A model generated the notes under the pieces. That model saw only the letters and a list, made by a program, of their open reading frames with translations, was not told the DNA's origin and did no database searches. This document shows, piece by piece, positions 5,103 through 23,873 of a stretch of 64,000 nt of DNA. Each line of letters starts with the position of its first letter. Position 1 is the first letter of the stretch. The stretch spans positions 2,108,001 to 2,172,000 of the forward strand of contig NZ_CP013909.1 in assembly GCF_001507645.1 (NCBI RefSeq), written 5' to 3'. This stretch comes from Hymenobacter sedentarius. GTDB lineage: Bacteria > Bacteroidota > Bacteroidia > Cytophagales > Hymenobacteraceae. The position numbers and the translations under genes were made by a program.

Positions 5103-6437
5103 ATGCCGATATCCGTTTCCGTGGGGCTGCCCGCTTCACGTTTTTTTCGTTGTTTCCGGCTCGCCGGAGTGCTTTTTGGGACGATTTCACTGCTGAGCAG
5201 CTGCGGCTCCGAGCCCACCGAAACCAAATCGGCTAGTTCCACCAAAGGAACCAAACCCGCGGCCACGGCCCCCGCCGCCCCCGAAGCGGCCCCGTTGCGG
5301 GTCAGCGTTTTTCTAGAGTATTCGGGCGGCATGAAGGGCTTCGTGCCCCGCGGCGGCGCCGATAAGCCGCCCACGGAATTCCAGCAGCGCATCGGCGCGC
5401 TCATCACCGAAACCCAGGTGAGCGGCGCCATCGCCGACCGCAAGTACTACCTCTGCGAAAACGCCGCGCCCAAAGCCGTGCCGTTTCAGCAGTTGCGCGA
5501 CGTGGTGCAGGGCGAGGTCAATCAGGCCGCCCTCGGCACCGAACTGCCGCAGATGCTCGAAGGCATTCTCAACATGCCGCAGGCCACCCAGCAGGTGAGC
5601 GTGGTAATTTCCGACTTCATCTACGGCCCGGCCCGCAAATCCGACTTTTCGCAGCTGCCCAACCTGATTCGCACGTCCATCGCGCCGGTGAGCCAGAAGC
5701 AGCTGGCCGTAGCCGTGTTCGGTGAGGCTTCCCACTTCTACGGCAGCTACTTCCCGGCCGTGAAGACGCCCGTGCAGAAGCGCACCCTCAACGGCGAGAA
5801 GGTGCCCTACTACGTGTGGGTGATTGGGCCGCCCGCGTTGGTGGCCCGCTACACGGCCGAGGTATTTAAGAACCCGCCCGCCCAGCAGGCCTTCTTTGGG
5901 CTGAAAACCGACACCCCGGCCTTCGCGCCGCTCCTCACCAAGCTTACCGACCCCAAATTAAAACCGAGCGGCGGCACGGTCTACGCCGAAAACAACGGCT
6001 TGACCCTGAACCCATCCGACGACCCCGTGGACTTTTCGCTGGCGCTGAATTTGAACGAATTGCCGGCCGCGTGGCAAAAACCGGAGTTTTTGGCCCAACA
6101 TGTGCGGGTACGCCTGCCCAACGGCCAGGCTTCTTTGCTGCCCAACTCGGTGCGCCTGCTCACCGACGACGAGCAGAGCGGCCAGCCGGTGCTGGCGCCC
6201 TTCACCCACGTGTTGCGCCTGCGGGTGAGCAAACTGGCGGCGCCCACCGCCACGCTCAGCCTCACGCTGCCCGCCCCGGAAACGCCGGAATGGGTGACTG
6301 CCTGGTCGACCACCAACGACAACGCCCCGGCGCCGCGCACCTTCGGCCTCGACCAAATCCTGGCCGGCGTGCGCCAATCGTATCCAACCCCGCTACCGGC
6401 CGTATTCACGGTTCAGCTTCCGCTCAAGAAAGATTAG
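5103..6437 (+). CDS. Lipoprotein with a vWA-like domain and degenerate MIDAS, first gene of the cassette
   Basis: A 444-residue predicted lipoprotein. The hydrophobic segment ending SLLSSC puts the lipidated Cys at residue 34, and a Thr/Ser/Pro/Ala-rich linker follows. At residues 67-77 VSVFLEYSGGM resembles the first strand and MIDAS loop of a von Willebrand A domain, with Glu72-x-Ser74-x-Gly76 in place of Asp-x-Ser-x-Ser. GTEL (Thr146) and VVISDF (Asp171) fall where the other MIDAS residues would be. Metal binding may therefore be altered or lost. The C-terminal half is beta-rich and unrecognised. It is the first gene of the run to 15632 and is divergent from the porin. vWA homology is inferred from motif order; the function is unknown. 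Confidence 0.75.
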   Translation: MPISVSVGLPASRFFRCFRLAGVLFGTISLLSSCGSEPTETKSASSTKGTKPAATAPAAPEAAPLRVSVFLEYSGGMKGFVPRGGADKPPTEFQQRIGALITETQVSGAIADRKYYLCENAAPKAVPFQQLRDVVQGEVNQAALGTELPQMLEGILNMPQATQQVSVVISDFIYGPARKSDFSQLPNLIRTSIAPVSQKQLAVAVFGEASHFYGSYFPAVKTPVQKRTLNGEKVPYYVWVIGPPALVARYTAEVFKNPPAQQAFFGLKTDTPAFAPLLTKLTDPKLKPSGGTVYAENNGLTLNPSDDPVDFSLALNLNELPAAWQKPEFLAQHVRVRLPNGQASLLPNSVRLLTDDEQSGQPVLAPFTHVLRLRVSKLAAPTATLSLTLPAPETPEWVTAWSTTNDNAPAPRTFGLDQILAGVRQSYPTPLPAVFTVQLPLKKD

Positions 6438-6443
6438 TTATCC

Positions 6444-6514
6444 GTTGCTCGTTGTCAGTTATTAGTACGTTCTGACAACGGAAAACCAGCAACTGACAAT
6501 TGACAACGAACAAC
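6444..6514. repeat. Palindromic intergenic element (GTTGTCAGTT family)
   Basis: Arms at 6444-6460 and 6491-6514 are near-perfect inverted repeats built from GTTGTCAGTT-like blocks. The element fills most of the 95-base gap between the lipoprotein gene and the next gene. Confidence 0.6.
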
Positions 6515-6532
6515 TGCCAACCCAACCATTTC

Positions 6533-6943
6533 ATGCAAACTTTCTTCACCAGCCTGTACTCGTCCCTGATTTCCATCTTTCAAAGCCAGCGGCCGGCCGA
6601 CTATGGCTTGTATAAAACCGATTTGTTTTCGCTCGTGGGCTGGAGCACTTTGGGCGTGGCTTTGTTGTTGGTAGTAGCGTTTTATTATCTGTTTAATTCG
6701 GCCCTGCGCACGGGTATGTTTCGCACCACGCACTGGGTGCTCACCCTGGCCCTGGCGGCTGGCCTGGGCACCCTGCTGGCCAACACGCTCAGCAAAAGCC
6801 ACGGCGCCGAAAGCAGCAGCTACCTGGGCTACTTTATGGTGGTAAACATGGTGGTGGCCTCGCTGTGGTTTCTGCTGTTTTCGGTGCTGCTCAAGCGCTG
6901 GAGCACCTACGCCCGCACTACCCCGTTTGTGGGGCCGTTTTAA
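6533..6943 (+). CDS. Small three-span membrane protein of the cassette
   Basis: A 136-residue protein, starting at the ATG at 6533 (MQTFFTSLYSSL). An in-frame upstream start at 6500 would add 11 residues that lie inside the palindromic repeat. Three hydrophobic spans are visible: VGWSTLGVALLLVVAFYYLF at about 34-53, VLTLALAAGLGTLLA at about 70-85, and MVVNMVVASLWFLLFSVLL at about 103-121. A short Arg/Pro tail ends the protein. I recognise no family. Its position between the vWA-like lipoprotein and the tubulin-like protein suggests it is an inner-membrane component of the same assembly. Confidence 0.75.
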   Translation: MQTFFTSLYSSLISIFQSQRPADYGLYKTDLFSLVGWSTLGVALLLVVAFYYLFNSALRTGMFRTTHWVLTLALAAGLGTLLANTLSKSHGAESSSYLGYFMVVNMVVASLWFLLFSVLLKRWSTYARTTPFVGPF

Positions 6944-6950
6944 GGCAGAA

Positions 6951-7080
6951 CCTTACCCCCGGCCCCTCTCCAAAAGAGAGGGGAGCCTGGTGGGTTTCAG
7001 GTAGGGATTTTGAAATTATCTACAGAAATAACCGCGCCACTGTGGCTCCCCTCTCTTTTGGAGAGGGGCCGGGGGTGAGG
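6951..7080. repeat. Palindromic element with 37-base arms (CCCCGGCCCCTCTCC family)
   Basis: Arms at 6951-6987 and 7044-7080 are almost exact inverted repeats, each internally containing an AGAGGGGAG / CTCCCCTCT hairpin. A second copy of the family lies at 15670-15824. It sits between two cassette genes, 20 bases before the tubulin-like gene. Confidence 0.75.
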
Positions 7081-7100
7081 TTCTCACGTCAGAAAAAGCT

Positions 7101-8579
7101 ATGTCCAAACTATTCATCTTTGCCGTGGGCGGCACCGGGGCCCGCGTGCTGCGCTCCCTCACCATGCTGCTGGCCGCCGGGGTGCGCATCCCCAATTGCG
7201 ACCAAGTGGTACCCGTCCTCATCGACCCCGACACCCAAAACGGCGACGTGACCCGCACCGTGGCCCTGCTCAAGCGCTACGCCCGCATCCACGAAGCGCT
7301 GTACGGCGATGGCCAGAAAGAGAAAACCGGCTTCTTTAGCCAGCCCATGAACACGCTGGCCCACCTGAACACCGGCGGCTCGGAAGAACTGCGCGACTCG
7401 TTCGTGTACGACTTTGGCGGCATCAGCCAGCCCTTCCGCGACTACTTGAAGTACAACGACCTCTCGGTCGAAAGCCAGGGCTTGGTGGATTTGCTGTTCA
7501 CGCAGGACAGCCTCGCTGCGAACCTCGATGTGGGCTTCCGCGGCTCGCCCAACGTAGGCTCGGTGGTGCTCAACGCGGTGGTGCAGTCCAAGGAAATGCG
7601 CTACCTCGCCCAGAGCCTGCAAGAGGGCGACCGGGCCTTCTTCATCAGCTCAATTTTTGGCGGAACTGGCGCAGCCGGCTTCCCGCTGCTGGTGAAGAAC
7701 CTGCGCGATTCAAACTCCGCGCTGGCCCACCCCGAAGTGCGCCGCCGCATGAAAGCCGGCGCTCTGGTGATGCTGCCGTACTTCAAGCTGCAGGAGCCTT
7801 CGCAGGATGAAAAGGCCGCCGGTCAGGATTTCATCGACTCGAATACCTTCATTACGAAGACCAAAACGGCCCTCTCGTACTACGCCGACAACCTGCAGGG
7901 CCTCGAGGCCATGTACTACCTTGGCGACCAGCCCGGCCAACCGCTGGCCAACCACCCCGGCCGCGCCGAGCAGCGCAACCAAGCCCACTTGCTGGAAATG
8001 CTTGGCGCCCTGTCGGTGGTGCACTTCATGGAGGTGCCCGACAACCAGCTCGACAGCGGCCAGCCGCTCTACCACGAGTACGGCCTGAAGTCGGACGCAC
8101 CCGAGGTAGACTTCGGCCAGCTGCCCGCCGACATGCGCCAGGAGGTGGCCCGCCCGCTCATTCAGCTCCACTACTTCGCCCGCTACTTTCTCAAGCACAC
8201 CCCCGAGGATGCGAAGGCGCCCTACTACGAGGCCGGCGACCTCTCAGCTCAACTGCGCAACAACCGCGCCCTGCGCGAGCTGAACGACTTCTTTGGCGAA
8301 TACAACGAATGGATTCGGGAGCTGGGCGTAAACCAGCGCCGCTACACGGCCATCCGCCCCGAGGAAATGGACTTCAATAAAATGGTGGCCGACAAAACCG
8401 TCGAGACCGGCATTTTCAGCAAAGGCATCACTCCGGGCTACTTCCGCGACGAGCTGACCAAGGCCGTGGGCAAAGACACGTTGAAGAACCCCACCGAAAA
8501 CGAGGCCCTGCGCTGGGTAGTGAAGGCGTTTGAAGAGGCCACGGGCGAGATTCTGGATAAGAAGCTCCAGTATTCGTAG
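7101..8579 (+). CDS. Tubulin/FtsZ-like (Tubulin_2-type) NTPase-fold protein
   Basis: A 492-residue cytoplasmic protein. The N terminus, MSKLFIFAVGGTGARVLRSL, is a nucleotide-binding beta-alpha unit with Gly10-Gly-Thr-Gly13. At residues 185-195 IFGGTGAAGFP matches the tubulin/FtsZ T4 signature (GGGTGTG-like) with a shifted composition. The N-terminal third predicts alternating strands and helices. The spacing of both glycine motifs fits the 'tubulin-like' family (PF13809 type) rather than cell-division FtsZ, which lacks the first GGTGxR motif. No FtsZ C-terminal peptide is seen. It is the third gene of the cassette and precedes the actin-like ATPase gene, so two cytoskeletal-type NTPase folds are adjacent. 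GTP binding is likely, and polymerisation is unknown. Confidence 0.8.
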   Translation: MSKLFIFAVGGTGARVLRSLTMLLAAGVRIPNCDQVVPVLIDPDTQNGDVTRTVALLKRYARIHEALYGDGQKEKTGFFSQPMNTLAHLNTGGSEELRDSFVYDFGGISQPFRDYLKYNDLSVESQGLVDLLFTQDSLAANLDVGFRGSPNVGSVVLNAVVQSKEMRYLAQSLQEGDRAFFISSIFGGTGAAGFPLLVKNLRDSNSALAHPEVRRRMKAGALVMLPYFKLQEPSQDEKAAGQDFIDSNTFITKTKTALSYYADNLQGLEAMYYLGDQPGQPLANHPGRAEQRNQAHLLEMLGALSVVHFMEVPDNQLDSGQPLYHEYGLKSDAPEVDFGQLPADMRQEVARPLIQLHYFARYFLKHTPEDAKAPYYEAGDLSAQLRNNRALRELNDFFGEYNEWIRELGVNQRRYTAIRPEEMDFNKMVADKTVETGIFSKGITPGYFRDELTKAVGKDTLKNPTENEALRWVVKAFEEATGEILDKKLQYS

Positions 8580-8612
8580 CGCCGGAAACAACTTAAATTC
8601 AAAATAATAATG

Positions 8613-8710
8613 ACGTCATGCTGAGCGCAGTCGAAGCATCTCGCGTGTGGTAGTAATCAAGCTAGCTCAACGAAGCACGCGAGATGCTTCGACTGCGCTC
8701 AGCATGACGT
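8613..8710. repeat. Perfect 35-base-arm palindrome (GAAGCATC family)
   Basis: Arms at 8613-8647 and 8676-8710 are perfect inverted repeats containing CATGCTGAGCGCAGTCGAAG. The loop carries GTAATCAA and GCTAGCTCAACGAAG, also found in the copy at 55554. It fills the gap between the tubulin-like and actin-like genes. Confidence 0.8.
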
Positions 8711-8735
8711 TCTAGTTCGTTTGTAAAAACCAAAA

Positions 8736-11700
8736 ATGGCTAAAATCCTGCGTTTGCACGATACCGGTTCCAGCACCCACGAGGGTTGGGGCCCGACTGG
8801 TAAAATTGGCCCCCACGAAGTGGAGCGCCTGCTCGACCCGCAAGGCGGCCGCGCCGCCAAGGTGGCGGTATCCATTCCGTCGCCCTTTGCCCGGATGCAC
8901 CTGGTCGAAACCGCGTTGCGCTTTGTGGGGCAGGGTGGGGGCCACCAGGACTCGGTGTACCACCAGCTGGTGAGCCATTTCTGGGACGTGTGGGAAATGG
9001 TGTTCAACTACCACCAACGCAAGCTGGCCAGCCAGCGCCTCCAAATTCGGGCTTGGCGCAAGGACGAGGAACTGGCCAAGCTGCGGGCCAACCCCGCCAC
9101 CCGGCCGCTGGCCGACGTGCTGAGCCTGTACCTCGACGGCCGCTTTGCCAAGCTCACCGAGATGCACCTCATCTACTTCCCGGGAGCCAATGGCGTGCCG
9201 CAGCTCATTGGCGGCACCTCGCCGCTCACGCTGTTTTTCCCGGCGCCCAACGTGCGGCCCCTGCCGGTGCAGCGGCCCCAGGGCGGCGGCTATTATTTCG
9301 ATAACCAGTACGTGTCGCTGGCCAACCGCGAGGCCGCGTTCCGCGACTTCGTATACCAGCAATTCGTGGGCGACCCAGCCCTGATGGCCCTGGCGCCGCT
9401 GGTGCGCGACACCCTGGACCGTGGCATCCTGCAGAAGTGGGCCATGGAAGGTAGCGCCAACCTGAGCAACTTCCCGGTGCTTACCGACGCTTCCAACAAC
9501 CAGATTGACGTTTCCGGCGTGCTGCTGCGCGTGCGCCCCGACGAGGGCACCGTGCGCAACTCCGACCTGTTTATCCGGCCCACCCGGGCTGGCGTGGCGG
9601 GCCCGTTGCCCATTGTGCTGCGTCCCGGCCTCAAAGCCATAGGCAAGCGCTACTTCAACGAGACGATGTTTGCCGACAGCGGCGCCATTATCCCCGCGGC
9701 CGACCCTCGCCCGCTGAAGGAGCGCACGCTGCCTGGCCCGGAGCTGCCGTACCCGTACCTCACGGTGAACGACCTGCTGGAAGAAACGCTGCTCACCGTG
9801 CCCTACGAGGTGGACGAGGCGCGCTTCTACTGCGGCTACCTGAAGATTGCGCCGGGCTTCAAGCCCAGCACCTGGCCGCTGCTGCCCATCAAGCCGGCTT
9901 ACTTCGACTACTTCACCGCCCACGACCTGGCCGAGCACCTGAGCATGGAGCTCGACCCGGCCTGCGTACGGGTGAAGCTGCGCGTGCCCGTGAGCGGCGG
10001 CGATTTTGTGGATTTTGAGCGGGCTTACTACCCCAACCCGCAGGGCGACAACCTGGGCCGCCTGCTGGTGACCAACGTGGCGCTGTCGGTGTTCCCCTTC
10101 GTAAAGGTGATTGACGCGCCGCAGTACAACGACTTCTACAAAGTCATGCTGGTGGATGCCAACAACATCGACCCGAGCATGGTGACCAAGAAAGTTGACC
10201 TGAAATTCTGGGTCGACGGCCGCCCGCTGGGCGAAACCGGCACCGGCCAGAGCGCCACGCGCTACGAGCGCACCCCCAAAACCGGCCAGGACGAAGGCAG
10301 CACCTACTACGAGGTGCGCGGCACCCATTTCGACTACCTCGAAGTGCTGAACCCGGCCCCTGCCGCTGGTTCAGCCCTGGTTATTCCGCGCTGGCCCGAG
10401 ATTCGGCAGGGCACCAAGGAGTATCGCTTTGCCATCGACTTTGGCACCACGAACACCCACGTGGCCATGCAGGACAACCCCGGCCAGGAGCCCAAGCCCT
10501 TCAGCTTTGGCCTGACCGATACGCCGGTGGCGCTGCTGAAAAAGTCGACCGGTGAGCCCGACCGCACTGCTTACGAGCGCCTGTACCGCGGCATCGACGA
10601 CGACCCGGCCAACTTCGTGCAAATCAAGCGCTGGCAGCAGTACCAGGAGCGCGAGTTCGTGCCGCCCATCATCGGGCAGGACAGCTCCCCGTACGCCTTC
10701 CCGGCCCGCACGGCTACCTACGAGGCCCCGAACTACGCTACCCAGGAGCTGAGCGTGTTGGGCAACATCAACGTGGCTTTCGGCATCATCACCGAAGAAC
10801 AGCGCCGGCCCAACTACCACACCAACCTGAAGTGGGACAATAGCCTGAACCAGGCCAGCACCAACCGCGTACGGGCTTTCTTCCAGGAAATCCTGCTGCT
10901 ATGCCGCGCCAAAGTGGCCCTGAACGGCGGCAACCTGGCGGCCACGCAAATCACCTGGTTTGCTCCGCTGAGCTTCTCGACCTACCAGCGCAACCTGTAC
11001 CAGCGCGAGTGGGACACGCTGTTCCACCAGGTGTTTCACACCAGCCACTCCATGCCGTGCATGGTGGAAAGCACGGCGCCGTACTACTACCTCACCCGGC
11101 GCAACATTGTGACACTGGGCCCGGGCGAAAACGCGGCCTTCATCGACATCGGCGGCGGCACCACCGACGTGCTGCTGTACGCCGACCGCAAGCCGGTGCT
11201 GAGCACCTCGTTTCGCTTTGCCGGCAACGACCTGTGGGGCGACGGCGGCGCCGAAGTGCGCGGCTCGAAAGACAACGGCCTCGTGCGTTTCGGCGTGGCC
11301 GGCGTGCAGAGCGCGGTGCTGTCGCCGGCCGCTCGGCGGGCCCGCGAATACGTGCTGGTAGCCGAAGGAACCGACAATTTCGGCTCTGAGGACGTGGCCA
11401 GCTTCCTGTTCAACTACGACCAGCTGCTGGGCTTTAGCGAGCGGCTGCTGCGGGCCGAGCACCTGCGCGTGCTGTTCTACCTGCACTTCGGCACCCTGAT
11501 TTACCACGTGGCGCAGGTGACGGTGGCCAACGGCCAGCAGCTGCCGCGCTACCTCTGCTTCACGGGCCGCGGCAGCCTCTACGTGCGCCTGCTGGCTGCC
11601 GGTGCCAACCTGCAGCCGGTGGAGAAGCTGGCGCGCCTCATCATGGAGAAAGCCACCGGCCAATCGGTGCCGACGGACTTCCGCATCAAGCTGGCCGACG

Positions 11701-12128
11701 ACCCCAAGCAAACCACGGCCAACGGCGGCGTGATGGCCACCGGCCAGATGCCGCAGGACCCGCCGCTGGTGCGCCCCGTGGGCACCGGCGACGAGCTAGA
11801 CAAAGGCGAGCACCACCTGGAAGCCACCGGCGTGACCGACGAAATCAAGCAAGCCGTGCTGGCCAATGCCCGCGCCTGCCTGAAGTTGCTGCTCGAAGAC
11901 CCGGAGCTGAAGCGCCTGCAAACCGACCTGGGCGTGAAAAACGACCCCGGCCTGGTGATGGCCACCCTGGACCGCCACCTCGGCGACTCGTTCAATCTGT
12001 ACCGGCAGCAGTACGCCGACGTGCTGCGCGACGGCGATACCGTTCCCGAAACGCTGTTCTTCCTGCCGTTCAAAAACGCCCTGTATGAGCTATCCAAGGT
12101 GCTTTATGACGCGCAGCCGCTTAACTAG
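8736..12128 (+). CDS. Large protein with C-terminal actin/Hsp70-type (ASKHA) ATPase domain
   Basis: A 1130-residue protein. About 560 N-terminal residues are of unrecognised, mostly mixed alpha/beta sequence. An ATPase domain then begins with FAIDFGTTNTHVAM (Asp568), the phosphate-1 motif of actin/Hsp70/sugar kinases. Phosphate-2 is FIDIGGGTTDVLLYAD (residues 802-817, Asp804 and Asp811), and the adenosine region is CFTGRGSLYVRLL (about 941-953). All three motifs look catalytically intact. It is much longer than DnaK or MreB, and the N-terminal domain is unusual. A distant relation to the SrfB-type Hsp70-like proteins is possible but not shown. It follows the tubulin-like gene and overlaps the next gene by 23 bases, indicating co-translation. 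Confidence 0.8.
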   Translation: MAKILRLHDTGSSTHEGWGPTGKIGPHEVERLLDPQGGRAAKVAVSIPSPFARMHLVETALRFVGQGGGHQDSVYHQLVSHFWDVWEMVFNYHQRKLASQRLQIRAWRKDEELAKLRANPATRPLADVLSLYLDGRFAKLTEMHLIYFPGANGVPQLIGGTSPLTLFFPAPNVRPLPVQRPQGGGYYFDNQYVSLANREAAFRDFVYQQFVGDPALMALAPLVRDTLDRGILQKWAMEGSANLSNFPVLTDASNNQIDVSGVLLRVRPDEGTVRNSDLFIRPTRAGVAGPLPIVLRPGLKAIGKRYFNETMFADSGAIIPAADPRPLKERTLPGPELPYPYLTVNDLLEETLLTVPYEVDEARFYCGYLKIAPGFKPSTWPLLPIKPAYFDYFTAHDLAEHLSMELDPACVRVKLRVPVSGGDFVDFERAYYPNPQGDNLGRLLVTNVALSVFPFVKVIDAPQYNDFYKVMLVDANNIDPSMVTKKVDLKFWVDGRPLGETGTGQSATRYERTPKTGQDEGSTYYEVRGTHFDYLEVLNPAPAAGSALVIPRWPEIRQGTKEYRFAIDFGTTNTHVAMQDNPGQEPKPFSFGLTDTPVALLKKSTGEPDRTAYERLYRGIDDDPANFVQIKRWQQYQEREFVPPIIGQDSSPYAFPARTATYEAPNYATQELSVLGNINVAFGIITEEQRRPNYHTNLKWDNSLNQASTNRVRAFFQEILLLCRAKVALNGGNLAATQITWFAPLSFSTYQRNLYQREWDTLFHQVFHTSHSMPCMVESTAPYYYLTRRNIVTLGPGENAAFIDIGGGTTDVLLYADRKPVLSTSFRFAGNDLWGDGGAEVRGSKDNGLVRFGVAGVQSAVLSPAARRAREYVLVAEGTDNFGSEDVASFLFNYDQLLGFSERLLRAEHLRVLFYLHFGTLIYHVAQVTVANGQQLPRYLCFTGRGSLYVRLLAAGANLQPVEKLARLIMEKATGQSVPTDFRIKLADDPKQTTANGGVMATGQMPQDPPLVRPVGTGDELDKGEHHLEATGVTDEIKQAVLANARACLKLLLEDPELKRLQTDLGVKNDPGLVMATLDRHLGDSFNLYRQQYADVLRDGDTVPETLFFLPFKNALYELSKVLYDAQPLN

Positions 12129-13149
12129 CCGGATTGGGCTGGGCGCCTTGCTGCTCTTGCTGGCCCTTGGGGGTGAGCAGGCGGCCCGTGCCCAGTCCAC
12201 TGCCGATTCGCTGCGGGAAGGCCCCGTAGCCTCGGTGCCGCAGCCAGATTCGACCGCGGCCGCCACTACTAGCGCTCCGGCCGTTGCGCCGTCTTCCAAC
12301 TGGCCGTGGATATTGGGCGTGCTGGGCGGCATTGCGCTAGGCGTGCTTGGGGCGCGTATGTGGGCGCGCTCGTCCCGGCCGGCGGCCGATAGCCGCGAAG
12401 ACCGCACCACAATGGCGCCGTCCGAACCCGAGCCCGTACGAAAGAAACCCGCTGAAAACGTGCCCCGCACGCCCGTGGTGCAGTCATTGCGCCAGGTGCA
12501 AGGAAGCCCGCCCACCTCGCCACCCGCGCCCAAGCCGGCGCCCAAGGCCGCCGGAACCGGGGCGAAATCAAAAAACAAACCCAAGCCCAACCAGCCTTCC
12601 GGCCGCGCGTCGTCCTGGCCCGCTGTTCCTCCCCGTCCTGCCATGAATCAAACTCCGCCACCCACGCCTCCCACGGATGGCGACTCGCAGCCCCTGGAAA
12701 CCGGCCAAACCATTGAGTGGACCACGCCGCCTTACATTCAGGAGCTAATCGAAACCACGGGCAATGAGGCGCCTGAGGCCCCGGCCGCTCCCGCCCAAGC
12801 CGCGGCGCCCACGCCGGCTGCTTCGAATGGCCCCGTGCACTATTACGCCCCGGCCCCCGACGTGCCCAGCATTGAGCACCGCAAGCTCAGCCCCAATCCG
12901 CTGCCGCAGATGCCACTGCTCATCACCCTCACGCACGCGGAGGCTACTATAGCCCAATTTTCATTCAGCCCGCAGGCCGACCAGTCGCGCATCATCGGCA
13001 ACGGCGTGCGGGAGCTGAAAGAATTTTTTGCGTTTGAACTGCCGCCAACCGAGCAATTTACCACCATTAAGAACCTGGCGGACGGAAAGCTGGAACGCCG
13101 CGACGATGCCTGGCACGTGGTGCAAAAAGCTGGGATTGCATTGAGTTGA
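12106..13149 (+). CDS. Single-span, Pro/Ala-rich cassette protein with C-terminal globular domain
   Basis: Start taken at the ATG at 12106, inside the end of the preceding gene; a start at 12085 is less likely. It is a 347-residue protein with a signal-like N terminus (LGALLLLLALGGEQAARAQ). A clear membrane span follows at about residues 65-85 (WPWILGVLGGIALGVLGARM), then a long disordered stretch rich in Pro, Ala and Lys. A compact C-terminal domain begins near PLLITLTHAEATIAQF and ends with a Trp-containing strand. No family is recognised. It could be a membrane linker joining the actin-like ATPase to the motor subunits encoded next. The overlap supports a shared complex. Confidence 0.75.
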   Translation: MTRSRLTSRIGLGALLLLLALGGEQAARAQSTADSLREGPVASVPQPDSTAAATTSAPAVAPSSNWPWILGVLGGIALGVLGARMWARSSRPAADSREDRTTMAPSEPEPVRKKPAENVPRTPVVQSLRQVQGSPPTSPPAPKPAPKAAGTGAKSKNKPKPNQPSGRASSWPAVPPRPAMNQTPPPTPPTDGDSQPLETGQTIEWTTPPYIQELIETTGNEAPEAPAAPAQAAAPTPAASNGPVHYYAPAPDVPSIEHRKLSPNPLPQMPLLITLTHAEATIAQFSFSPQADQSRIIGNGVRELKEFFAFELPPTEQFTTIKNLADGKLERRDDAWHVVQKAGIALS

Positions 13150-13160
13150 GGGAGAAAAGA

Positions 13161-13275
13161 TGTAGAGACGCGACCCTTCGCGTCTTGCCGTTTAATGATT
13201 ATGGTCGCGCCCTTGGGCTATCATCGTTCAACTAGTACCGTTCAACGCTGAGACGCGAAGGGTCGCGTCTCTACA
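13161..13275. repeat. Palindromic element (TGTAGAGACGC family)
   Basis: Arms at 13161-13186 and 13250-13275 pair almost perfectly and each carries an internal CGCGACCCTTCGCG-type hairpin. A related copy lies at 32948-33030. It separates the Pro-rich protein gene from the ExbB-like gene. Confidence 0.75.
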
Positions 13276-13321
13276 CCCAAAGGCGCCGCAGTAACTTCGG
13301 CAATTATTTGACGAAGCGGTT

Positions 13322-14815
13322 ATGCTCTTAATTGAAATTGTATTGGTGCTGGCGCTGGTCGCCTGGCAGGCCTTCGTGTTCTGGCGCAACCGCCAGCTCA
13401 CCGAGCGGGTGCAGGCCATGTACCCCGTGGCGGGCGCGGTAGCCGTACAGCCCATTCCCTTCACGGCCGCTCAGCCGGAGAAGAATTTCGCGGTGCAATA
13501 CGATGCCCTCATCACCCGCGATGCCTCGCCCGAGTTTGGCCAAATCATCACCGACACCAACGAATACCTGCTGAATAACCGCGGCGCCGCGGCCGATTTC
13601 GGCATTCTAAAAGACATCTCCGAGCGCCACGCCGAGGCGCTGGACGAGGAGATTCAGGCCCAGATTGCCACGCCGCTGTACCTGGGCCTGCTGGGCACCT
13701 TCACAGGGGCCATCCTGGGCTTGGTGGCGCTGGTGGGCAATCCCTTTTCGGAGGTATCGGATAACCCGCACACGGACACGTCGTTCAGCAACGGCGACGT
13801 GCAGCACTTCCTGGGGGGCGTGCTTATCGCCATGATTGGTAGCCTATTTGGCCTGGCGTTCACGCTGGCCGGCAACCAGCTGCTGAAGCAGGCGCGGGCC
13901 GTGCGCGACCGCCACAAGAACGCCTACTACACCTTCTTGCAGAAGGCGTTGCTGCCCAAGCTCAACTCGGACATGCAAGCCGGCATGAGCAATCTGAAAT
14001 CGGTGCTGGATACGTTCAATACCGAATTCTTCAGCCAGATTCAGAACGACTTCTTTAGCAAAATCCACGAGTTTACGCCGCTCATCGCCAGCATCACGGA
14101 CAACGTGAGCGTGCAGAAGCGTTTCCTGGAGCAGCTGGAGAAAATTGGCTATTCGGAGCTGGCCAACGCCACCATCAAGGTGTTTGATAGGGTGGATGAG
14201 AGTGCCCAGACCTTCGAGAAATTCCTGGGCTACCAGCAGGCGCTGAACACCACCGTGACGCACAGCAACGAAGCCGCCCAGACCATTGGCGCGCTGCTCA
14301 ACCGCCTCATGGCCCTGGAGCAAGGCCTAGCCAGCGTGCCGCAGTACCTGCAGCAGCACGACGATGCCCTGCGCCAGCAAGTGGCCTTCTTCAGCCAGCA
14401 CGGCAAGCTGCTGGCCGATATTGGGTCCCAAATCCGCCAGGGCGTGAGCGAAGGCGTGCACCGCATGGACCAGGAGCTCGACGGCCGCCTGCAAGAGCTG
14501 CAGCAGGAAGCCACCGAAGCCCACGAGCAGTGGCAGCGCCACTTCCGCGAGCTGAACAACAACAACATCTACCAGAAAATCACCGAGTACCTCAACCCCT
14601 TCACGCAGCTCCCGGCCCAGCAGCAGCAGCTCAACGCCCTGCAGGAGCGCCAGGCCGCCCTCGCCGCCCAAGCCATGCAGCGCATGGAAGCCCGACTGCT
14701 GGCCGACGCGCAGCTGCAGCAGCAACTCCTGCAGCAGGTAGAACGCACCAACAAAGTGCTCGAGGAACTCACCAAGCCCAACTGGTTCCAGCGCACGGTG
14801 CTAGGCAAGAAGTAA
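13322..14815 (+). CDS. ExbB/MotA-like channel protein with long coiled-coil tail (ZorA-like architecture)
   Basis: A 497-residue membrane protein. One span lies at the N terminus (LLIEIVLVLALVAWQAFVFW) and a cytoplasmic segment of about 90 residues follows. Two spans come at about 115-139 (YLGLLGTFTGAILGLVALVG) and 165-188 (GGVLIAMIGSLFGLAFTLAG), separated by a short outside loop. This is the TolQ/ExbB topology, and the GTFTGAILG and GSLFGLAFT segments match the conserved channel helices of the MotA/TolQ/ExbB superfamily. The last 300 or so residues are Gln/Glu/Leu-rich coiled coil, far longer than in ExbB and comparable in design to ZorA of Zorya defence systems. The next gene supplies the MotB-like partner. 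Confidence 0.8.
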   Translation: MLLIEIVLVLALVAWQAFVFWRNRQLTERVQAMYPVAGAVAVQPIPFTAAQPEKNFAVQYDALITRDASPEFGQIITDTNEYLLNNRGAAADFGILKDISERHAEALDEEIQAQIATPLYLGLLGTFTGAILGLVALVGNPFSEVSDNPHTDTSFSNGDVQHFLGGVLIAMIGSLFGLAFTLAGNQLLKQARAVRDRHKNAYYTFLQKALLPKLNSDMQAGMSNLKSVLDTFNTEFFSQIQNDFFSKIHEFTPLIASITDNVSVQKRFLEQLEKIGYSELANATIKVFDRVDESAQTFEKFLGYQQALNTTVTHSNEAAQTIGALLNRLMALEQGLASVPQYLQQHDDALRQQVAFFSQHGKLLADIGSQIRQGVSEGVHRMDQELDGRLQELQQEATEAHEQWQRHFRELNNNNIYQKITEYLNPFTQLPAQQQQLNALQERQAALAAQAMQRMEARLLADAQLQQQLLQQVERTNKVLEELTKPNWFQRTVLGKK

Positions 14816-14836
14816 GGCAGACAATTCAGAAGAACT

Positions 14837-14933
14837 TCATGCTGAGCGCAGCCGAAGCATCTCGCATGGGATAGTAATCCAATCGCTGGGATTAGTGGTT
14901 GCACGCGAGATGCTTCGGCTGCGCTCAGCATGA
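14837..14933. repeat. Palindromic element (GAAGCATC family)
   Basis: Arms at 14837-14865 and 14905-14933 are inverted repeats of the same family as 8613-8710, with GCCGAAGC replacing GTCGAAGC. It fills the space between the two motor-subunit genes. Confidence 0.75.
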
Positions 14934-14972
14934 CGGTTTTATTACATTGAATAATTTACATACTCCCACCCC

Positions 14973-15632
14973 ATGAAAGAGAGCAAGGACTTCTTCTGGC
15001 CCAGCTACGTGGACCTCATGACGGCCTTGTTCCTGACCATGCTCGTTATGTTCGTGCTCAGTTACAAGCTTTTCAAAGACAAGGCGCGCGATAACGACAA
15101 GCTCATCTACGACCTGAAAGTGCAGGTGCAGGAAAAGCGCAAGCTAGACGAAATAAAAGCGGCTCTCAAGCGCCTGGAAAGCAATTATTTCGAATACAAC
15201 CCCACCTATAAGCGCTACGAGCTGAAATTCCCGGTCACGTTTGCTCCCAAAAGCGACGTGCTGCCCTACGAAGCCCAGGCGCCCCTGGTGAAAGCCGGCC
15301 GCTTTCTGCTCAACCAGATGCAGTCCATCAAAAACGACGAAAACGTGCAGTACCTCATCGTGGTAGAGGGTCGTGCTGCCAAAGACCTCCGCTACCCTGC
15401 CAACGACCTGCACAACCTCGACGGCCCAGCCGTGCGCCAGCTCAGCTACAGCCGCGCCTTGGCCGTAATCCGGCTCTGGGAACAGGCCGGGCTGCGCTTC
15501 CCCAATAACCTGGAAGTAGTGGCCGCTGGCAGTGGCTTCCGCGGCGCCGGCCGTTACACCGGCAGCCAGGAGGCGCTGAATAAACGGTTTATCATTCAGA
15601 TTCAGCCCAAGATTGGCTCAATTGGGAAGTAG
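14973..15632 (+). CDS. MotB/OmpA-like motor protein (ZorB-like)
   Basis: A 219-residue protein with one N-terminal span, WPSYVDLMTALFLTMLVMFV at residues 9-28. Asp14 in YVDLMTALF occupies the position of the proton-carrying Asp of MotB (YADFMTA-type motif). A charged helix of about 35 residues follows, then a periplasmic OmpA-like domain of about 130 residues. SYSRALAVIRLWEQ and VVAAGSGFRG match the second half of OmpA/MotB peptidoglycan-binding domains. The usual NxxLSxxRA motif reads QLSYSRALAV. It would form an ion-driven stator with the preceding ExbB/MotA-like protein. It is the last gene of the cassette; a terminator-bearing palindrome follows. Confidence 0.85.
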   Translation: MKESKDFFWPSYVDLMTALFLTMLVMFVLSYKLFKDKARDNDKLIYDLKVQVQEKRKLDEIKAALKRLESNYFEYNPTYKRYELKFPVTFAPKSDVLPYEAQAPLVKAGRFLLNQMQSIKNDENVQYLIVVEGRAAKDLRYPANDLHNLDGPAVRQLSYSRALAVIRLWEQAGLRFPNNLEVVAAGSGFRGAGRYTGSQEALNKRFIIQIQPKIGSIGK

Positions 15633-15650: not shown

Positions 15651-15870
15651 AGCGTCATGCTTCGTGGAGCCTAACCCCCGGCCCCTCTCCAAATGAGAGG
15701 GGAGCCGGACATTAAACAACAAATGCCCCGGCTCAAGTTAGCTGGGGCTTTTCTGTTTTCAGGAATTGAGCTAAAACCTTATGTTGTAGCTCCCCTCTCT
15801 TTTGGAGAGGGGCCGGGGGTGAGGTTCCACGAAGCGGTAAAGATGCTTCGCTGCGCTCTGCATGACGGTC
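15651..15870. repeat. Three-level nested palindrome with terminator at its centre
   Basis: The outer partial arms (GCGTCATGC at 15652-15660 and GCATGAC at 15860-15866, with GAAGC blocks) belong to the GAAGCATC family. The middle arms at 15670-15706 and 15789-15824 are a second copy of the 6951-7080 family. A terminator hairpin at 15721-15756 sits in the centre. The CTTCGTGG / CCACGAAG bases continue the pairing between the outer and middle levels. Confidence 0.65.
15721..15756. terminator. Rho-independent terminator after the cassette
   Basis: AAATGCCCCGGCT, a six-base loop and AGCTGGGGCTTTT form a stem with A-rich and T-rich ends. It lies between the plus-strand cassette and the minus-strand aldo/keto reductase gene, so it can act for both. 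Confidence 0.65.
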
Positions 15871-19709: not shown

Positions 19710-21464
19710 ATGCCCTCCTTCATGCAAGAGTATAACTCGTCGGTTGCCCCCGCATTGCCCCAACTCCCCAAAGCCTTAACGGGTATTGAGGGCCTTGATG
19801 AAATCACCGATGGCGGCTTGCCGCAGGGGCGCCCCACCCTGATTTGCGGCAGCGCGGGCTGCGGCAAAACCTTGATGGGCATTGAGTTTCTGGTGCGCGG
19901 CATTCAGGAATACAACGAGCCCGGCGTGCTCATGGCCTTCGAGGAAACCGGCGAAGAGCTGGCCGCTAACGTGGCCTCTCTGGGTTTCGACCTGAAAGCC
20001 CTGCAGGACAGCAAGATGCTGCGCCTCGACCACGTGCACGTCGACCGGTCGGAGATTGAAGAAACTGGCGAATACGACCTCGAAGGGCTGTTTATACGCC
20101 TGGGTTACGCCATCGATTCCATTGGGGCCAAGCGCGTGGTGCTCGACACGATTGAGGCGCTGTTTTCGGGCTTTCCGAATCAGGCTGTGCTGCGCTCGGA
20201 AATCCGCCGGCTGTTTCGGTGGCTCAAGGACAAGGGCGTCACTACCGTCATCACGGCCGAGCGCGGCGACGGCACCTTGACGCGCCAAGGGTTGGAGGAG
20301 TACGTGTCGGACTGCGTGATTCTGCTCGACAACCGGGTGATTGACCAGATTACCACCCGCCGCCTGCGCATTGTGAAGTACCGCGGCAGCACCCACGGCA
20401 CCAACGAGTACCCCTACCTCATCACGGAAGACGGCATTTCGGTGCTGCCCGTGACGTCGCTGCGGCTCGACCACCAGGTGTCGAACAACATCATGTCGTC
20501 CGGCGTGCCTGCCCTCGACGACATGTTTGGCATGGGCGGCTTTTACCAGGGCAGCAGCGTGCTCATTACCGGCACGGCCGGCACCGCCAAAACCACCCTG
20601 GCCGCCTCCTTTGCCGAAAAAACCTGCGAGCAGGGGCAGCGCTGCCTGTTTTTTGCTTTCGAAGAATCGCCGCAGCAGCTGCTGCGCAACATGCAGTCGG
20701 TGAGCGTGGACTTGAAGTCGCACGTGGCGTCCGGGCTGCTGCGCATCGAAGCGTCGCGGCCCACCATCAACGGCCTCGAGCAGCACCTCGTCACGCTGCA
20801 CCGGCTGGTGAAGGAGTTTAAGCCCGATGCGGTGATTATCGACCCCATCACCAACCTCATCACGGTGGGCAACATTGCCGAAGTGCGCAGCATGCTCACG
20901 CGCCTCATCGACTTTCTGAAGGTGAGCGGCATCACAGCCTACTTCACGGCCCTGGTGAGCGGGCGCGGGCAGCAGCAGGAAATGACCGACGAGGGCGTGT
21001 CGTCGTTGGTCGATACCTGGATTAGCGTGCGCGACCTCGAAGGCATTGGCGAGCGCAACCGCGGCCTGAGCATTCTCAAATCGCGCGGCATGGCCCACTC
21101 CAACCAGGTGCGCGAGTTCCTCGTGACCGACCGTGGCGTGGAGCTGCTCGAGGTGGTGGTGGGCCCCACCGGCATTGTGACCGGCGCCAGCCGCCTCACC
21201 CAGCAGCTGCAGGAGCACGCCCAGACCCTGGCCGCCCAGCAGGAAGCCGACCGCCGCGACCGCGAGCTGGAGCGACGCCGCCGCGTGCTCGAAGCCAACA
21301 TTGCCAACCTGCGCACCGAGTTTGAGTCGGTGGAGGAGGAACTGCGCCAAATCAATTCGCACGAACAAACGCGCCAGCAAACCCTGGCCAGCGGCCATCA
21401 GCGCATTGCCGCCGCCAATCCGCCGCGGCGCAACGCCCCCACTGCCGGCGAAAACCCCAAGTAG
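19710..21464 (+). CDS. kaiC: KaiC-like double RecA-domain ATPase/autokinase
   Basis: A 584-residue protein with the two-domain KaiC layout. CI carries Walker A GSAGCGKT at residues 47-54 and the catalytic Glu pair in LMAFEETGEE. CII carries GTAGTAKT at 288-295 and FFAFEESPQQ. The CII autophosphorylation region reads GVSSLVDTW with Ser431 and Ser432, where Synechococcus KaiC has Ser-Thr, so phosphorylation is plausible. After the CII core there is a C-terminal extension of about 90 residues, charged and coiled-coil-like (EADRRDRELERRRR), in place of the short KaiA-binding tail. No kaiA gene is present. It heads an operon with two kaiB genes, a kinase and a response regulator, suggesting signalling or stress timing. 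Confidence 0.93.
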   Translation: MPSFMQEYNSSVAPALPQLPKALTGIEGLDEITDGGLPQGRPTLICGSAGCGKTLMGIEFLVRGIQEYNEPGVLMAFEETGEELAANVASLGFDLKALQDSKMLRLDHVHVDRSEIEETGEYDLEGLFIRLGYAIDSIGAKRVVLDTIEALFSGFPNQAVLRSEIRRLFRWLKDKGVTTVITAERGDGTLTRQGLEEYVSDCVILLDNRVIDQITTRRLRIVKYRGSTHGTNEYPYLITEDGISVLPVTSLRLDHQVSNNIMSSGVPALDDMFGMGGFYQGSSVLITGTAGTAKTTLAASFAEKTCEQGQRCLFFAFEESPQQLLRNMQSVSVDLKSHVASGLLRIEASRPTINGLEQHLVTLHRLVKEFKPDAVIIDPITNLITVGNIAEVRSMLTRLIDFLKVSGITAYFTALVSGRGQQQEMTDEGVSSLVDTWISVRDLEGIGERNRGLSILKSRGMAHSNQVREFLVTDRGVELLEVVVGPTGIVTGASRLTQQLQEHAQTLAAQQEADRRDRELERRRRVLEANIANLRTEFESVEEELRQINSHEQTRQQTLASGHQRIAAANPPRRNAPTAGENPK

Positions 21465-21509
21465 CCCGTATACCCCAGTTGCCCCCAGCAACCGCCCCAC
21501 ACCCTTTCC

Positions 21510-21812
21510 ATGGCTGAAGAAAACGACGAAGAAACCTGGGAGTTGCGCCTGTACGTGGCCGGCCAAACCCCCAAATCGGTAACGGCCCTGGCCAACCTCA
21601 AGAGACACTGCGAGCAGCACCTCAAGGGCCGCTATAAGATAGAAGTCATCGACCTGCTGGTGAACCCCCAGCTGGCCGAGGGCGACCAGATACTGGCCAT
21701 TCCGACGCTGGTGCGCAAAGTGCCCGAGCCCATTCGCAAAATCATCGGCGACCTCTCCAACGAAGAGCGGGTGCTGGTGGGCTTGGACGTGCGTCCCTTC
21801 ACCAAACAATAG
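21510..21812 (+). CDS. kaiB: KaiB (canonical copy)
   Basis: A 100-residue thioredoxin-like KaiB. It matches the canonical family closely: [45 protein letters not shown], then [13 protein letters not shown] and [15 protein letters not shown]. All positions linked to fold switching and binding to the KaiC CI ring look conserved. It starts 45 bases after kaiC and ends eight bases before a second, more divergent kaiB. It would bind phosphorylated KaiC and alter its state. The start at 21510 gives the usual family length. Confidence 0.95.
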
Positions 21813-21820
21813 GCTGCTCG

Positions 21821-22162
21821 ATGGAACCACTACTGGACCCCGCGGACGGCCCCGAGGAGGCTGCCGGCCCCGAATATTTGCTGCACCTGTACATTACGGG
21901 GGCCACGAATAACTCGACGCGCGCCGTGCGCAACATCAAGGAAATCTGCGAAGAGCACCTGAAAGGGCGCTACGAGCTGCTGATAGTGGACGTGTACCAG
22001 CAGCCGGAGCTGGCCCAGGAAAAAGACCTGATTGGCGTGCCCACGCTCATTAAGCTGCGCCCCGGCTTGGTGCGCCGCATGGTGGGCGACTTCTCGGACC
22101 GCGAACGGGTGCTGAAGGCCTTGGGCGTGATTCCGCCCGCCACTGTCATCGGCAATGAGTGA
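21821..22162 (+). CDS. KaiB-like protein (divergent second copy)
   Basis: A 113-residue KaiB paralogue. It keeps LHLYITGATNNSTRAVRN, ICEEHLKGRYELLIVDVY, then DLIGVPTLIKLRPG and VGDFSDRERVLKALG. The N terminus is longer and acidic, and the canonical [12 protein letters not shown] reads QQPELAQEKDLIG. Such KaiB-like second copies accompany many non-cyanobacterial kaiC genes and may bind a different target or compete with the first copy. Its stop overlaps the histidine kinase start by eight bases (ATGAGTGA), indicating translational coupling. The family call is firm, the specific role unknown. Confidence 0.9.
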   Translation: MEPLLDPADGPEEAAGPEYLLHLYITGATNNSTRAVRNIKEICEEHLKGRYELLIVDVYQQPELAQEKDLIGVPTLIKLRPGLVRRMVGDFSDRERVLKALGVIPPATVIGNE

Positions 22163-23873
22163 GCCGCTGCCCCCCAAGGTTGACCTGACCCGTGAGAACG
22201 AGGAGCTGCGCTACCAGCTGGAGGAAGCGCAGGAGCTGATACATGCCATCCGGACCGGGGCCATCGATGCGCTGGCTGTGCAAAGCGCCCAGGGGCCGCG
22301 CATCTTCACGCTGCAAGGCGCCGACCAAGGCTACCGCACCCTGATTGAGCAGATGAACGAGGGCGCCTTGCTGCTCAGCGAAGACGCCACCGTGCTCTAC
22401 TGCAACGCCTGCCTGGCCGGCCTGCTGGGCCACGCCCTGGGCGAGCTGATGGGCAGTTCCTTCGATGCGTTTGTGCCCTTGGTGTTTCAGGACTACTGGG
22501 CCAGCCTGATGCAGCGGGGCTGGGCGGGCAAAAGCAAGGGCGAGCTGCCCCTGCAAACCAAAGCGGGCGCGCTGGTGCCGTTTTCGGTGTCGATGAACGT
22601 GCTGATGTTCAACGAGACGCCCACGCTGGCCGTGATAGTGACGGACTTGTCGGCGCAGCGCGAAATCAGCGCCATTCAGGCCCAGGTGCTGGAACAAAAC
22701 GCCCTGCTCGACCGCAAAACCGAGGAGCTCAAGCGCGAAGAAGCCGGCCGCCTGGTGGGCGAGCGCGCCGCCGCCGAAGCCAGCCGCCTGCTCGAGGGCA
22801 TCTCCCAGATTGCCTGGACCACCAACGCACTGGGCGACCACACCTACCGCAACCGCCGCTGGTACGACTACATTGGGCAGGGCCAGGGCCAGGGCGCCCC
22901 CGCCAGCCGCTCCTGGCGCGAGCGCCTGCACCCAGACGATGTGGCGCCCACGCTGGCGCACTGGCAGCACAGCCTGCACACCGGCCAGCCCTACGAGGTG
23001 GAGTGCCGCATCCGCAACCACGCCGGGGCCTACCGCTGGATGCTGGGTCGGGCGCTGCCCTCGCGCAACGAGCAGGGCGAGATTATCCAGTGGATTGGCA
23101 CCTACACCGACATCCACGAGCACAAGCTGGCGCTCGAGCGCATCGACCAGGGCCAGCGCGAGCTGCGCGACAACAACGAGCAGCTCACCCGCGTCAACGT
23201 CGACCTCGACAACTTCATCTACACCGCCTCGCACGACCTCAAGGCGCCCATCTCCAACATCGAGGGCCTGCTGCACGCCCTGCTGGTGGAGCTGCCCGCC
23301 GAAACCGTGCAGGCCGACCCGGTGCAGCCCATTCTGGGGCTGATGCAGGACTCGGTAAACCGTTTCAAGCGCACCATCGAGCACCTCACCGACGTGAGCA
23401 AGCTGCAGAAAGAGCACGGCCACCCCACCGAGCCCGTGGACCTGGCCACCGTGGTCCAGGACGTGCTCCTCGATTTGGAGCCGCTCATTCAGGCGGCCAC
23501 CGCCCGGCTGGAAGTGGACGTGCAGGCCGCCCCCTCGGTGTCCTTTTCCGAGAAAAACCTGCGCAGCGTGGTGTTCAACCTGCTCAGCAATGCCCTCAAG
23601 TACCGCGCGCCCGACCGCGCGCCGCACGTGCGCCTCCGGGCCCGGCCCGAAGCCAGCGGCGTGGTGCTCGAAGTGCAGGACAACGGCCTGGGGCTGGACG
23701 CGGCCAGCGAACAGAAAATGTTCGGCATGTTCCAGCGCTTTCACGACCACGTCGAGGGCTCCGGCATTGGCCTTTACATGGTGAAAAAGATGGTGGAAAA
23801 CGCCGGGGGGCGCATCGCCGTGCGCTCGGAACTGGGCGTGGGCTCCACGTTTTTGGTTTACTTTAGCCGCTGA
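22155..23873 (+). CDS. PAS-containing sensor histidine kinase of the kai operon
   Basis: A 572-residue soluble kinase with no membrane spans. A short N-terminal coiled coil (ENEELRYQLEEAQELIHA) precedes a PAS domain from about residue 55 (GYRTLIEQMNEGALLLS). A second PAS/PAC follows from about 215, with NRRWYDYIGQGQGQG and the PAC sequence EVECRIRNHAGAYRWMLG. HisKA has the phosphoacceptor His360 in TASHDLKAPISN. The HATPase domain shows NLLSNALKY, DNGLGLD and GSGIGLYMV. It lacks the KaiB-like sensor domain of SasA, so any coupling to KaiC must be by another route. It overlaps kaiB2 by eight bases and is followed 52 bases later by a single-domain response regulator, its likely partner. Confidence 0.9.
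   Translation: MSEPLPPKVDLTRENEELRYQLEEAQELIHAIRTGAIDALAVQSAQGPRIFTLQGADQGYRTLIEQMNEGALLLSEDATVLYCNACLAGLLGHALGELMGSSFDAFVPLVFQDYWASLMQRGWAGKSKGELPLQTKAGALVPFSVSMNVLMFNETPTLAVIVTDLSAQREISAIQAQVLEQNALLDRKTEELKREEAGRLVGERAAAEASRLLEGISQIAWTTNALGDHTYRNRRWYDYIGQGQGQGAPASRSWRERLHPDDVAPTLAHWQHSLHTGQPYEVECRIRNHAGAYRWMLGRALPSRNEQGEIIQWIGTYTDIHEHKLALERIDQGQRELRDNNEQLTRVNVDLDNFIYTASHDLKAPISNIEGLLHALLVELPAETVQADPVQPILGLMQDSVNRFKRTIEHLTDVSKLQKEHGHPTEPVDLATVVQDVLLDLEPLIQAATARLEVDVQAAPSVSFSEKNLRSVVFNLLSNALKYRAPDRAPHVRLRARPEASGVVLEVQDNGLGLDAASEQKMFGMFQRFHDHVEGSGIGLYMVKKMVENAGGRIAVRSELGVGSTFLVYFSR

Follow-up and report, generated by a model that had tools for sequence, protein, structure and literature searches.

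We analysed a 64,000-nucleotide stretch of the genome of Hymenobacter sedentarius (contig NZ_CP013909.1, positions 2,108,001 to 2,172,000; the window), which is a single contig of 4.87 Mb. At window positions 5103-15632, an open reading frame (ORF) scan gives seven co-directional ORFs, here called genes A to G, all on the plus strand; the gene run that the original prediction had proposed as one system is thus real, and its coordinates are confirmed. The cassette pairs a predicted tubulin-fold protein (C) with a predicted actin-fold protein (D), and it adds a putative ion-driven motor (F and G). The two main cytoskeletal NTPase folds usually belong to separate systems. The nearest named relatives are Hymenobacter, with gene C 98% identical to that of Hymenobacter sp. 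BT770. In direct scans of the seven window proteins, none exceeded a curated Pfam or NCBIfam cut-off; weak Tubulin, FtsA and OmpA signals were the only ones seen, together with the PADLOC model ZorB1 for G (E 1.7e-7). The protein identities given below are drawn from relatives and structure models, not from these direct scans.

Gene C (7101..8579, plus strand) encodes a 492-residue protein whose structure model (predicted local distance difference test, pLDDT, 85) matches the tubulin/FtsZ fold, and which according to this model carries an FtsZ/CetZ-type GTPase domain. Its T1 loop (GGTG) and T4 loop (FGGTGA) are kept in 35/35 aligned C sequences, and the model of the 492 residues contains no long coiled coil. 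Among these relatives, 27 of 35 match the Pfam family Tubulin_2 (PF13809), which we take to be the FtsZ-like family FtsZl1 discussed below, at E<=0.01; the window protein does not at that limit (12 bits versus a cut-off of 27), and its own genome yielded no PF13809 match. The genome encodes a separate FtsZ with an adjoining FtsA-like gene, plus MreB, and these genes disfavour a cell-division role for C and D.

The product of gene D (8736..12128, plus strand) has 1130 residues, of which about 560-1010 are modelled as an MreB/Hsp70-type ATPase domain of the ASKHA fold (pLDDT 88). Both phosphate motifs accompany this fold, each being present in 45 of 49 relatives. Scores against the curated families FtsA (16.3, cut-off 31.8) and MreB_Mbl (12.1, cut-off 27) lie below threshold. 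The fold search was dominated by the ATPase domain and barely covered the N-terminal 550 or so residues, whose fold is unassigned; hydropathy flags residues 443-461, but the model shows strands there. Single-sequence searches of the Protein Data Bank (PDB) with C, D and F returned chance-level rows only.

Three further proteins are predicted to lie at or in the membrane. Gene A (5103..6437, plus strand) encodes a predicted lipoprotein with a lipobox-like LSSC at residues 31-34 and a degenerate MIDAS-like motif of the kind seen in von Willebrand factor A (vWA) domains. In its alignment Cys34, Met77 and Asp171 are invariant (23/23) and a loose MIDAS-like pattern recurs in 20 of 23 relatives; an A profile found nothing useful in the PDB. 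Gene B (6500..6943, plus strand), also present in relatives, codes for a small membrane protein with three span-like segments by hydropathy; its real start probably lies near 6533, with relatives of 136 residues. Gene E (12085..13149, plus strand) overlaps the end of D, probably starts in reality near 12106, and specifies a protein with a signal-like N-terminus, one span by hydropathy (residues 76-94) and a proline-rich tail.

The last two genes resemble stator subunits. By hydropathy, F (13322..14815, plus strand) has three span-like segments followed by a long, predicted cytoplasmic tail, as in MotA/ExbB/ZorA-like channel subunits, and G (14973..15632, plus strand), a MotB/ZorB-like subunit with an OmpA-like, predicted periplasmic domain, has one. 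Eleven of 17 F-family members match MotA_ExbB (PF01618) at E<=1 (best 2.9e-6), the window protein itself not being among them, and seven of 17 match the ZorA2 model PDLC00640 at the same limit (best 3.1e-6); several match ZorA models (best 3.3e-7), window F only at E 0.32. An F profile returned mostly unrelated helical proteins from the PDB, with weak TolQ and ZorA rows at E 0.005. In the G family, 13 of 16 members match OmpA (best 4.5e-7) and six of 16 MotB_plug (best 0.0023) at E<=1, and window G reaches OmpA at E 1.2e-4 (22.8 bits, cut-off 27.2). A G profile aligns over nearly the full length of ZorB in 8vvn, a type I Zorya structure (E 5.6e-12), and also finds ZorB in 8qyd (4.3e-6), so that by sequence G is nearer to ZorB of Zorya than to the flagellar MotB chains among the matches listed. 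The structures 8VVN and 8VVI are described as type I and type II ZorAB (PMC11890865). Judged by their alignments, F and G keep the residues of ion-driven motors: Asp14 of G is invariant (16/16) and aligns with the ZorB aspartate, and Thr126 and Thr181 of F are invariant (17/17) and would lie in the Thr/Ser ring of a stator.

Most identities of the original prediction therefore hold: the three-span B and the single-span, proline-rich E by hydropathy, the tubulin/FtsZ-like C and the actin/Hsp70-type domain of D by model and fold match, and the ExbB/MotA-like F by its family. Two need qualifying. A is a predicted lipoprotein as proposed, by its lipobox, with a loose MIDAS-like pattern and no solid Pfam vWA match, and the MotB/OmpA-like G retains its OmpA likeness, but lies closer to ZorB than to flagellar MotB.

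The cassette is conserved as a unit within the genus. In 71 of 77 genus loci all seven genes stand in order on one strand, by a strand-aware count; an earlier count gave 68, as in L054, L129 and L134 the best match to E is a second gene on the opposite strand, situated just upstream of A (L054:4576-6189, L129:12757 onward, L134:12919 onward). The set of 77 contains two probable duplicate pairs (L013/L156 and L014/L157), and the short loci L003, L005, L016, L019, L020 and L024 had been left out beforehand. Among the six non-complete loci, G alone is missing from L058, L061 and L154, and both F and G from L118, in every case at a point where a contig or fetched stretch ends (in G115 and G060, the genomes of L058 and L061, G lies on another contig), and L122 and L123 are of a divergent type. 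Of the upstream flanks, by contrast, five genes recur in only 5-29 of the 77 loci, window included, and the persistence of the seven-gene order while these flanks change argues for one unit. Downstream flanks (KaiC gene 1/77, aldolase 17/77, aldo/keto-reductase 13/77) say little here, as their positions lie close to or past the end of many fetched stretches. None of 39 loci treated as outside the genus, a set that includes the genus member L079, carries any window flank gene. The genes are thus kept together in related genomes, neither scattered nor assigned to unrelated housekeeping families.

Gene C was found in 120/120 genus genomes, in G219 and G234 only as a diverged copy. In G219 this sole C (L122:2960-4498) stands beside diverged D and A genes and a true Hsp70, which indicates that the genus holds two types of system.

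The tie between C and D extends beyond the genus. In a profile over 148 genomes of the order, C occurs in 40 and D in 41: both in 40, C only in none, D only in one (G110, 72% complete) and neither in 107 (Fisher p 1.7e-35, without correction for relatedness). D was counted at E<1e-20; weaker hits are MreB-, FtsA- and DnaK-like cross-matches, with 135 of 148 genomes matching at E<=0.001. The two genes lie on different contigs in seven draft genomes (G001, G043, G054, G081, G096, G134, G136) and about 234 kb apart in the single contig of G004, where G is elsewhere again. The tie is thus not merely a matter of operon co-transfer, given that C and D are unlinked in these eight C-positive genomes.

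Joint action of C and D is best supported by their natural fusion. Genome G123 encodes one ORF of 1623 residues, in which C spans residues 1-479 and D residues 491-1623, and has A on another contig. A search with this fusion, which scored the 7992 candidates sharing most words, returned 65 proteins, 62 of which carry C followed by D (one being the query's own cluster); 59 of these 62 clusters exceed 1400 residues, and the matched halves are separated by 8 to about 130 residues; eight examples were inspected individually. For a tree of C domains, 286 sequences (63 fused) were reduced to 115 (36 fused) and then to 61 (21 fused, 40 unfused), and this tree requires five changes between the two states (bootstrap range 4-6). 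A single clade of all fused rows is rejected (approximately unbiased, AU, test p 0.0011; log-likelihood lower by 82.7), a question posed after a first FastTree run had already shown several fused clades. The fused rows not forming one clade, C and D were fused more than once or split again. An assembly error as the origin of the fusion is ruled out by the 62 clusters with both halves and by the rejection of a single fused clade.

D could also act as a chaperone, an Hsp70-like foldase for C and for envelope clients that forms no filaments. We regard this as quite improbable: neither a substrate-binding domain nor a J-domain partner was matched in the Pfam scan of the cassette, and D is constantly paired with one tubulin-fold protein.

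Outside the genus the cassette is modular. Of 38 neighbourhoods, some of them cut by contig ends, 13 hold A-E, seven C-D, seven C only, four all seven genes and two ABC, with single cases of ABCDEF, ABCD, ABCDFG, ACD and ACFG. C-D is the constant pair, usually accompanied by A and B, and F-G and E are absent in many relatives; assignments of E are the least reliable, as the profile behind them was iterated from a low-complexity, proline-rich protein. A sparse phylum sample (14 of 395 genomes) served only to add loci. Other partners also occur, such as Hsp70 (L122), a trypsin-like protease (L080), WG-repeat proteins (L067, L069) and an OmpA protein (L110). At L109 a divergent C-D pair is followed by an OmpA-domain protein (487-1656) and three TerD proteins (L109:1672-3563), which links the core to Ter-type stress systems.

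The pair also recurs beyond the order. C matches six of 72,556 plasmid records: five are cyanobacterial plasmids and one is a Prevotella replicon of chromosome size; three of the six were looked at. A-E are all retained in the oral Prevotella record. At two cyanobacterial plasmid loci the retained genes are A (1.3e-19, 2e-16; in the first on the opposite strand), C (4.9e-71, 6.3e-64) and D (6.4e-29, 1.4e-38), and F-G was not seen at either.

Such modularity could mean that there is no single machine, C-D being one unit and the motor and lipoprotein merely frequent neighbours. The incomplete neighbourhoods, above all the 13 with A-E only, the seven with C-D only and the seven with C only, fit this explanation, as do three genomes with a strong ZorB-like G gene but no C (G049:C1:5667126-5667872, G093:C70:9801-10337, G104:C21:198608-199357). 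The constant genus order despite changing upstream flanks stands against it, and so do the 30 genomes among the 148 with a strong A (E<1e-50), all of which have C; this count drops seven genomes with weaker matches (G025, G051, G056, G065, G110, G116, G141). Likewise, 17 of the 20 genomes with a strong G also have C, in a count that drops three genomes weaker than 1e-40 (G047, G116, G123). A connection is also suggested by the distant locus L113, where genes resembling A, F and G, each weakly supported, come after a fused C-D gene. We therefore consider mere neighbourhood improbable, and of the single-system claim the conserved unit within the genus stood, whereas a fixed set of seven genes did not.

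Gliding or surface motility, with the F-G stator driving C-D as a cytoskeletal track, is a further candidate role. Ion-driven 5:2 motors are described as powering gliding and type 9 secretion (PMC11890865), and here cytoskeletal folds adjoin motor genes. A strong G is nevertheless absent from 23 of the 40 C-positive genomes, and the two cyanobacterial loci show no F-G; we hold motility to be very unlikely.

We favour, tentatively and with slightly less than even confidence, the reading that the cassette encodes one envelope-spanning machine, in which a cytoplasmic C-D pair is coupled to a ZorAB-like ion motor formed by F and G. C and D would bind each other and assemble together under the control of GTP and ATP, and F and G would form an F5:G2 stator. 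The OmpA-like domain of G may grip the peptidoglycan, the helical tail of F would reach the C-D assembly, and ion flow through F-G could set the state or position of that assembly. The membrane proteins B and E may tether C-D to the inner membrane, with lipoprotein A reporting or gripping on the periplasmic side. The task would be a standing envelope function, for instance mechanical remodelling or a response to envelope stress; this is the weakest step of the proposal. C-D would represent the core and the motor an add-on of Hymenobacter and some relatives. In a bolder form, which we find doubtful, tubulin and actin homologues would be obligate partners in a mixed polymer run on GTP and ATP, with a mechanical link across the envelope to a rotary ion motor. 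If true, this would be the first machine to merge both cytomotive folds, with an ion-powered stator to drive it or read its state.

Several observations weigh against the envelope machine. The FtsZ-type NxDxxD/E pattern of the T7 loop occurs in only 5 of 35 C sequences, which leaves GTP hydrolysis and classic protofilaments of C unproven, and the C model reaches only low Foldseek TM-scores (0.25 when normalised by query length). The vWA identity of A is weak, with no Pfam vWA match for the window protein and one among 23 relatives at E 0.011, and 10 of the 40 C-positive genomes, those with the most diverged C, are without a strong A. A strong G is found in only 17 of these 40, and whatever the task of C-D, it can thus do without the motor. 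If only the well-supported branches of the C-domain tree are counted, a single fusion event suffices, and long branches lead to several rows. Frame-split copies of C occur in G087, G160, G173, G204, G223 and G232, of D in G087 and L121, and of F in L151; these splits may reflect sequencing error or decay, and they imply that the system may not be essential. Within the genus, C is mostly 50-54% identical versus 74-78% for FtsZ, and out of step with it: C and FtsZ identities are 49% and 93% in G213, and 49% and 88% in G170. Finally, three viral-binned contigs carry C (L173, L174 and L175).

The mismatch between C and FtsZ suggests, at the level of sequence comparison, that the cassette was exchanged or replaced within the genus. 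The pattern recurs in eight genomes (G213, G170, G233, G218, G190, G191, G157, G164), in which FtsZ is 85-93% identical to that of the window genome and C only 49-50%. Of the viral-binned contigs, L173 has A-B-C-D plus E, and L174 and L175 have A-B-C-D plus F-G; they could be true viral cargo or host sequence binned by mistake. Together, mismatch and viral-binned contigs weaken the envelope machine and strengthen an explanation by phage defence.

In that explanation, a Zorya-like or 'NTP-dependent conflict' system, F-G would sense envelope damage caused by phage and trigger a C-D effector. Its appeal lies in the motor: ZorB chains are the best solved relatives of G, G matches PADLOC ZorB models and F-family members match ZorA models. 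As described for Zorya ZorAB (PMC11890865), F is a three-span subunit with invariant threonines and a long, predicted cytoplasmic tail, and G has a motor aspartate and an OmpA-like domain. The partners swapped by lineage (TerD and OmpA proteins, Hsp70, a trypsin-like protease) and the fast divergence of C relative to FtsZ would also suit a defence role. Unlike Zorya, the cassette has no match to ZorC, ZorD, ZorE, ZorF or ZorG, its partners are tubulin-fold and actin-fold proteins, and C is genus-wide; among PADLOC models at E<=1, only ZorA, ZorB and LmuB matched any of the seven proteins.

Combinations of tubulin, Hsp70 and vWA proteins have been proposed as conflict systems (Kaur et al. 2020, PMC7159879), and the cassette shares with them the combination of a tubulin-family, an HSP70/actin-fold and a putatively vWA-like protein. 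In the account given there, these systems centre on a DO-GTPase and GAP1, the tubulin theme is limited to firmicutes and actinobacteria, and tubulin and HSP70 are separate themes, whereas here C-D is one constant pair. No DO-GTPase or GAP1 match appeared in the Pfam scan of the cassette, in a Pfam copy whose inclusion of these models is unconfirmed.

The surroundings offer no defence context either. Nine flanking proteins gave PADLOC matches at E<=0.01 only for a KaiC-family ATPase and a histidine kinase, matches that we ascribe to ATPase and kinase domains of a general kind; C had no match at E<=1e-5 among 50,697 phage records; and no nuclease or toxin domain was matched in the cassette by the Pfam and NCBIfam scans. 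On the combined result for the seven cassette proteins, the nine flanking proteins and the phage records, we rejected a defence island at this locus. We favour a standing envelope role over optional phage defence because C is present in all 120 genus genomes, PADLOC shows no defence genes among the flanking proteins, no phage record matches, and the window genome has an ordinary FtsZ and MreB besides. Phage defence, for us unlikely if still a serious candidate, is accordingly less probable than in the even spread over envelope, motility and defence roles that the original prediction had left. The rival explanations weighed here are not mutually exclusive.

Among known systems, the cassette is best called a variant of the FtsZl1/vWA/OmpA kind, as outlined in the main text of the work in which Makarova & Koonin 2010 (PMC2875224) predicted FtsZl1/vWA/GTPase/OmpA membrane-remodelling systems. 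Like these, it contains a diverged GTPase of the tubulin superfamily that has a GGTG loop and the GGGTG(S/T)G-type T4 loop of FtsZl1 proteins; a predicted lipoprotein that may be vWA-like, a protein with an OmpA domain and membrane proteins particular to the lineage accompany it, and an ordinary FtsZ is encoded in the same genome. The OmpA-family protein seen in several FtsZl1 genomes has its counterpart in G; the vWA protein may have one in A, whose MIDAS-like motif comes without a solid Pfam vWA match. Unlike most FtsZl1 members, which combine an extended coiled coil with a helical C-terminal domain, C is without the extended coiled coil, and the P-loop GTPase or protein kinase that is frequent, not universal, in FtsZl1 operons is unmatched in the seven proteins in Pfam and NCBIfam. 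The likeness to this proposal claimed at the outset thus survives for the tubulin-like GTPase and the OmpA protein; the P-loop GTPase and the long coiled coil have no match in the cassette. Beyond the FtsZl1 system, the cassette adds the 1130-residue actin-fold partner, the natural C-D fusions and the ZorAB-like motor, and neither MotA, TolQ nor Hsp70 occurs in the main text of PMC2875224.

A tubulin homologue acting with an actin homologue at the membrane also recalls the pair FtsZ and FtsA. C and D are nevertheless distant from these two proteins, and the genome encodes an FtsZ of its own next to an FtsA-like gene. In the open-access literature, which leaves most subscription journals outside, we found no published account of a constant tubulin-fold/actin-fold pair of this kind, of an FtsZ-FtsA or other tubulin-actin fusion, or of a ZorAB-like motor accompanying such a pair. 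Relative to the known systems, the actin-fold partner, the C-D fusions and the motor are new.

As constant partners across the sampled genomes of the order, which recur in cyanobacteria and are naturally fused, C and D provide a handle on cooperation between tubulin and actin homologues. The predicted FtsZ-like/vWA/OmpA envelope machines become testable through the two-domain fusion, which lends itself to expression on its own, and Hymenobacter pairs C-D with a ZorAB-like motor.

All long intergenic gaps of the cassette and the site after G are filled by palindromic repeats of three types, which are not part of the proposed mechanism. The repeat between B and C (6947..7084), of a dispersed type with arms 98% complementary, has at least 151 matches in its own genome (both strands, arms counted separately, 40 of 75 candidates scored) and shares its type with the repeat directly after G (15659..15835). 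A repeat scan places others between C and D (8600..8723), E and F (13161..13275), and F and G (14830..14940), the last sharing its type with the C-D repeat. Farther downstream, window positions 19710-23873 hold a clock-protein-like cluster in a Bacteroidota genome: a KaiC-family double ATPase (PF06745, E 9e-114), then ORFs of 100 and 113 residues that by eye are presumably KaiB-like, and then a PAS histidine kinase.

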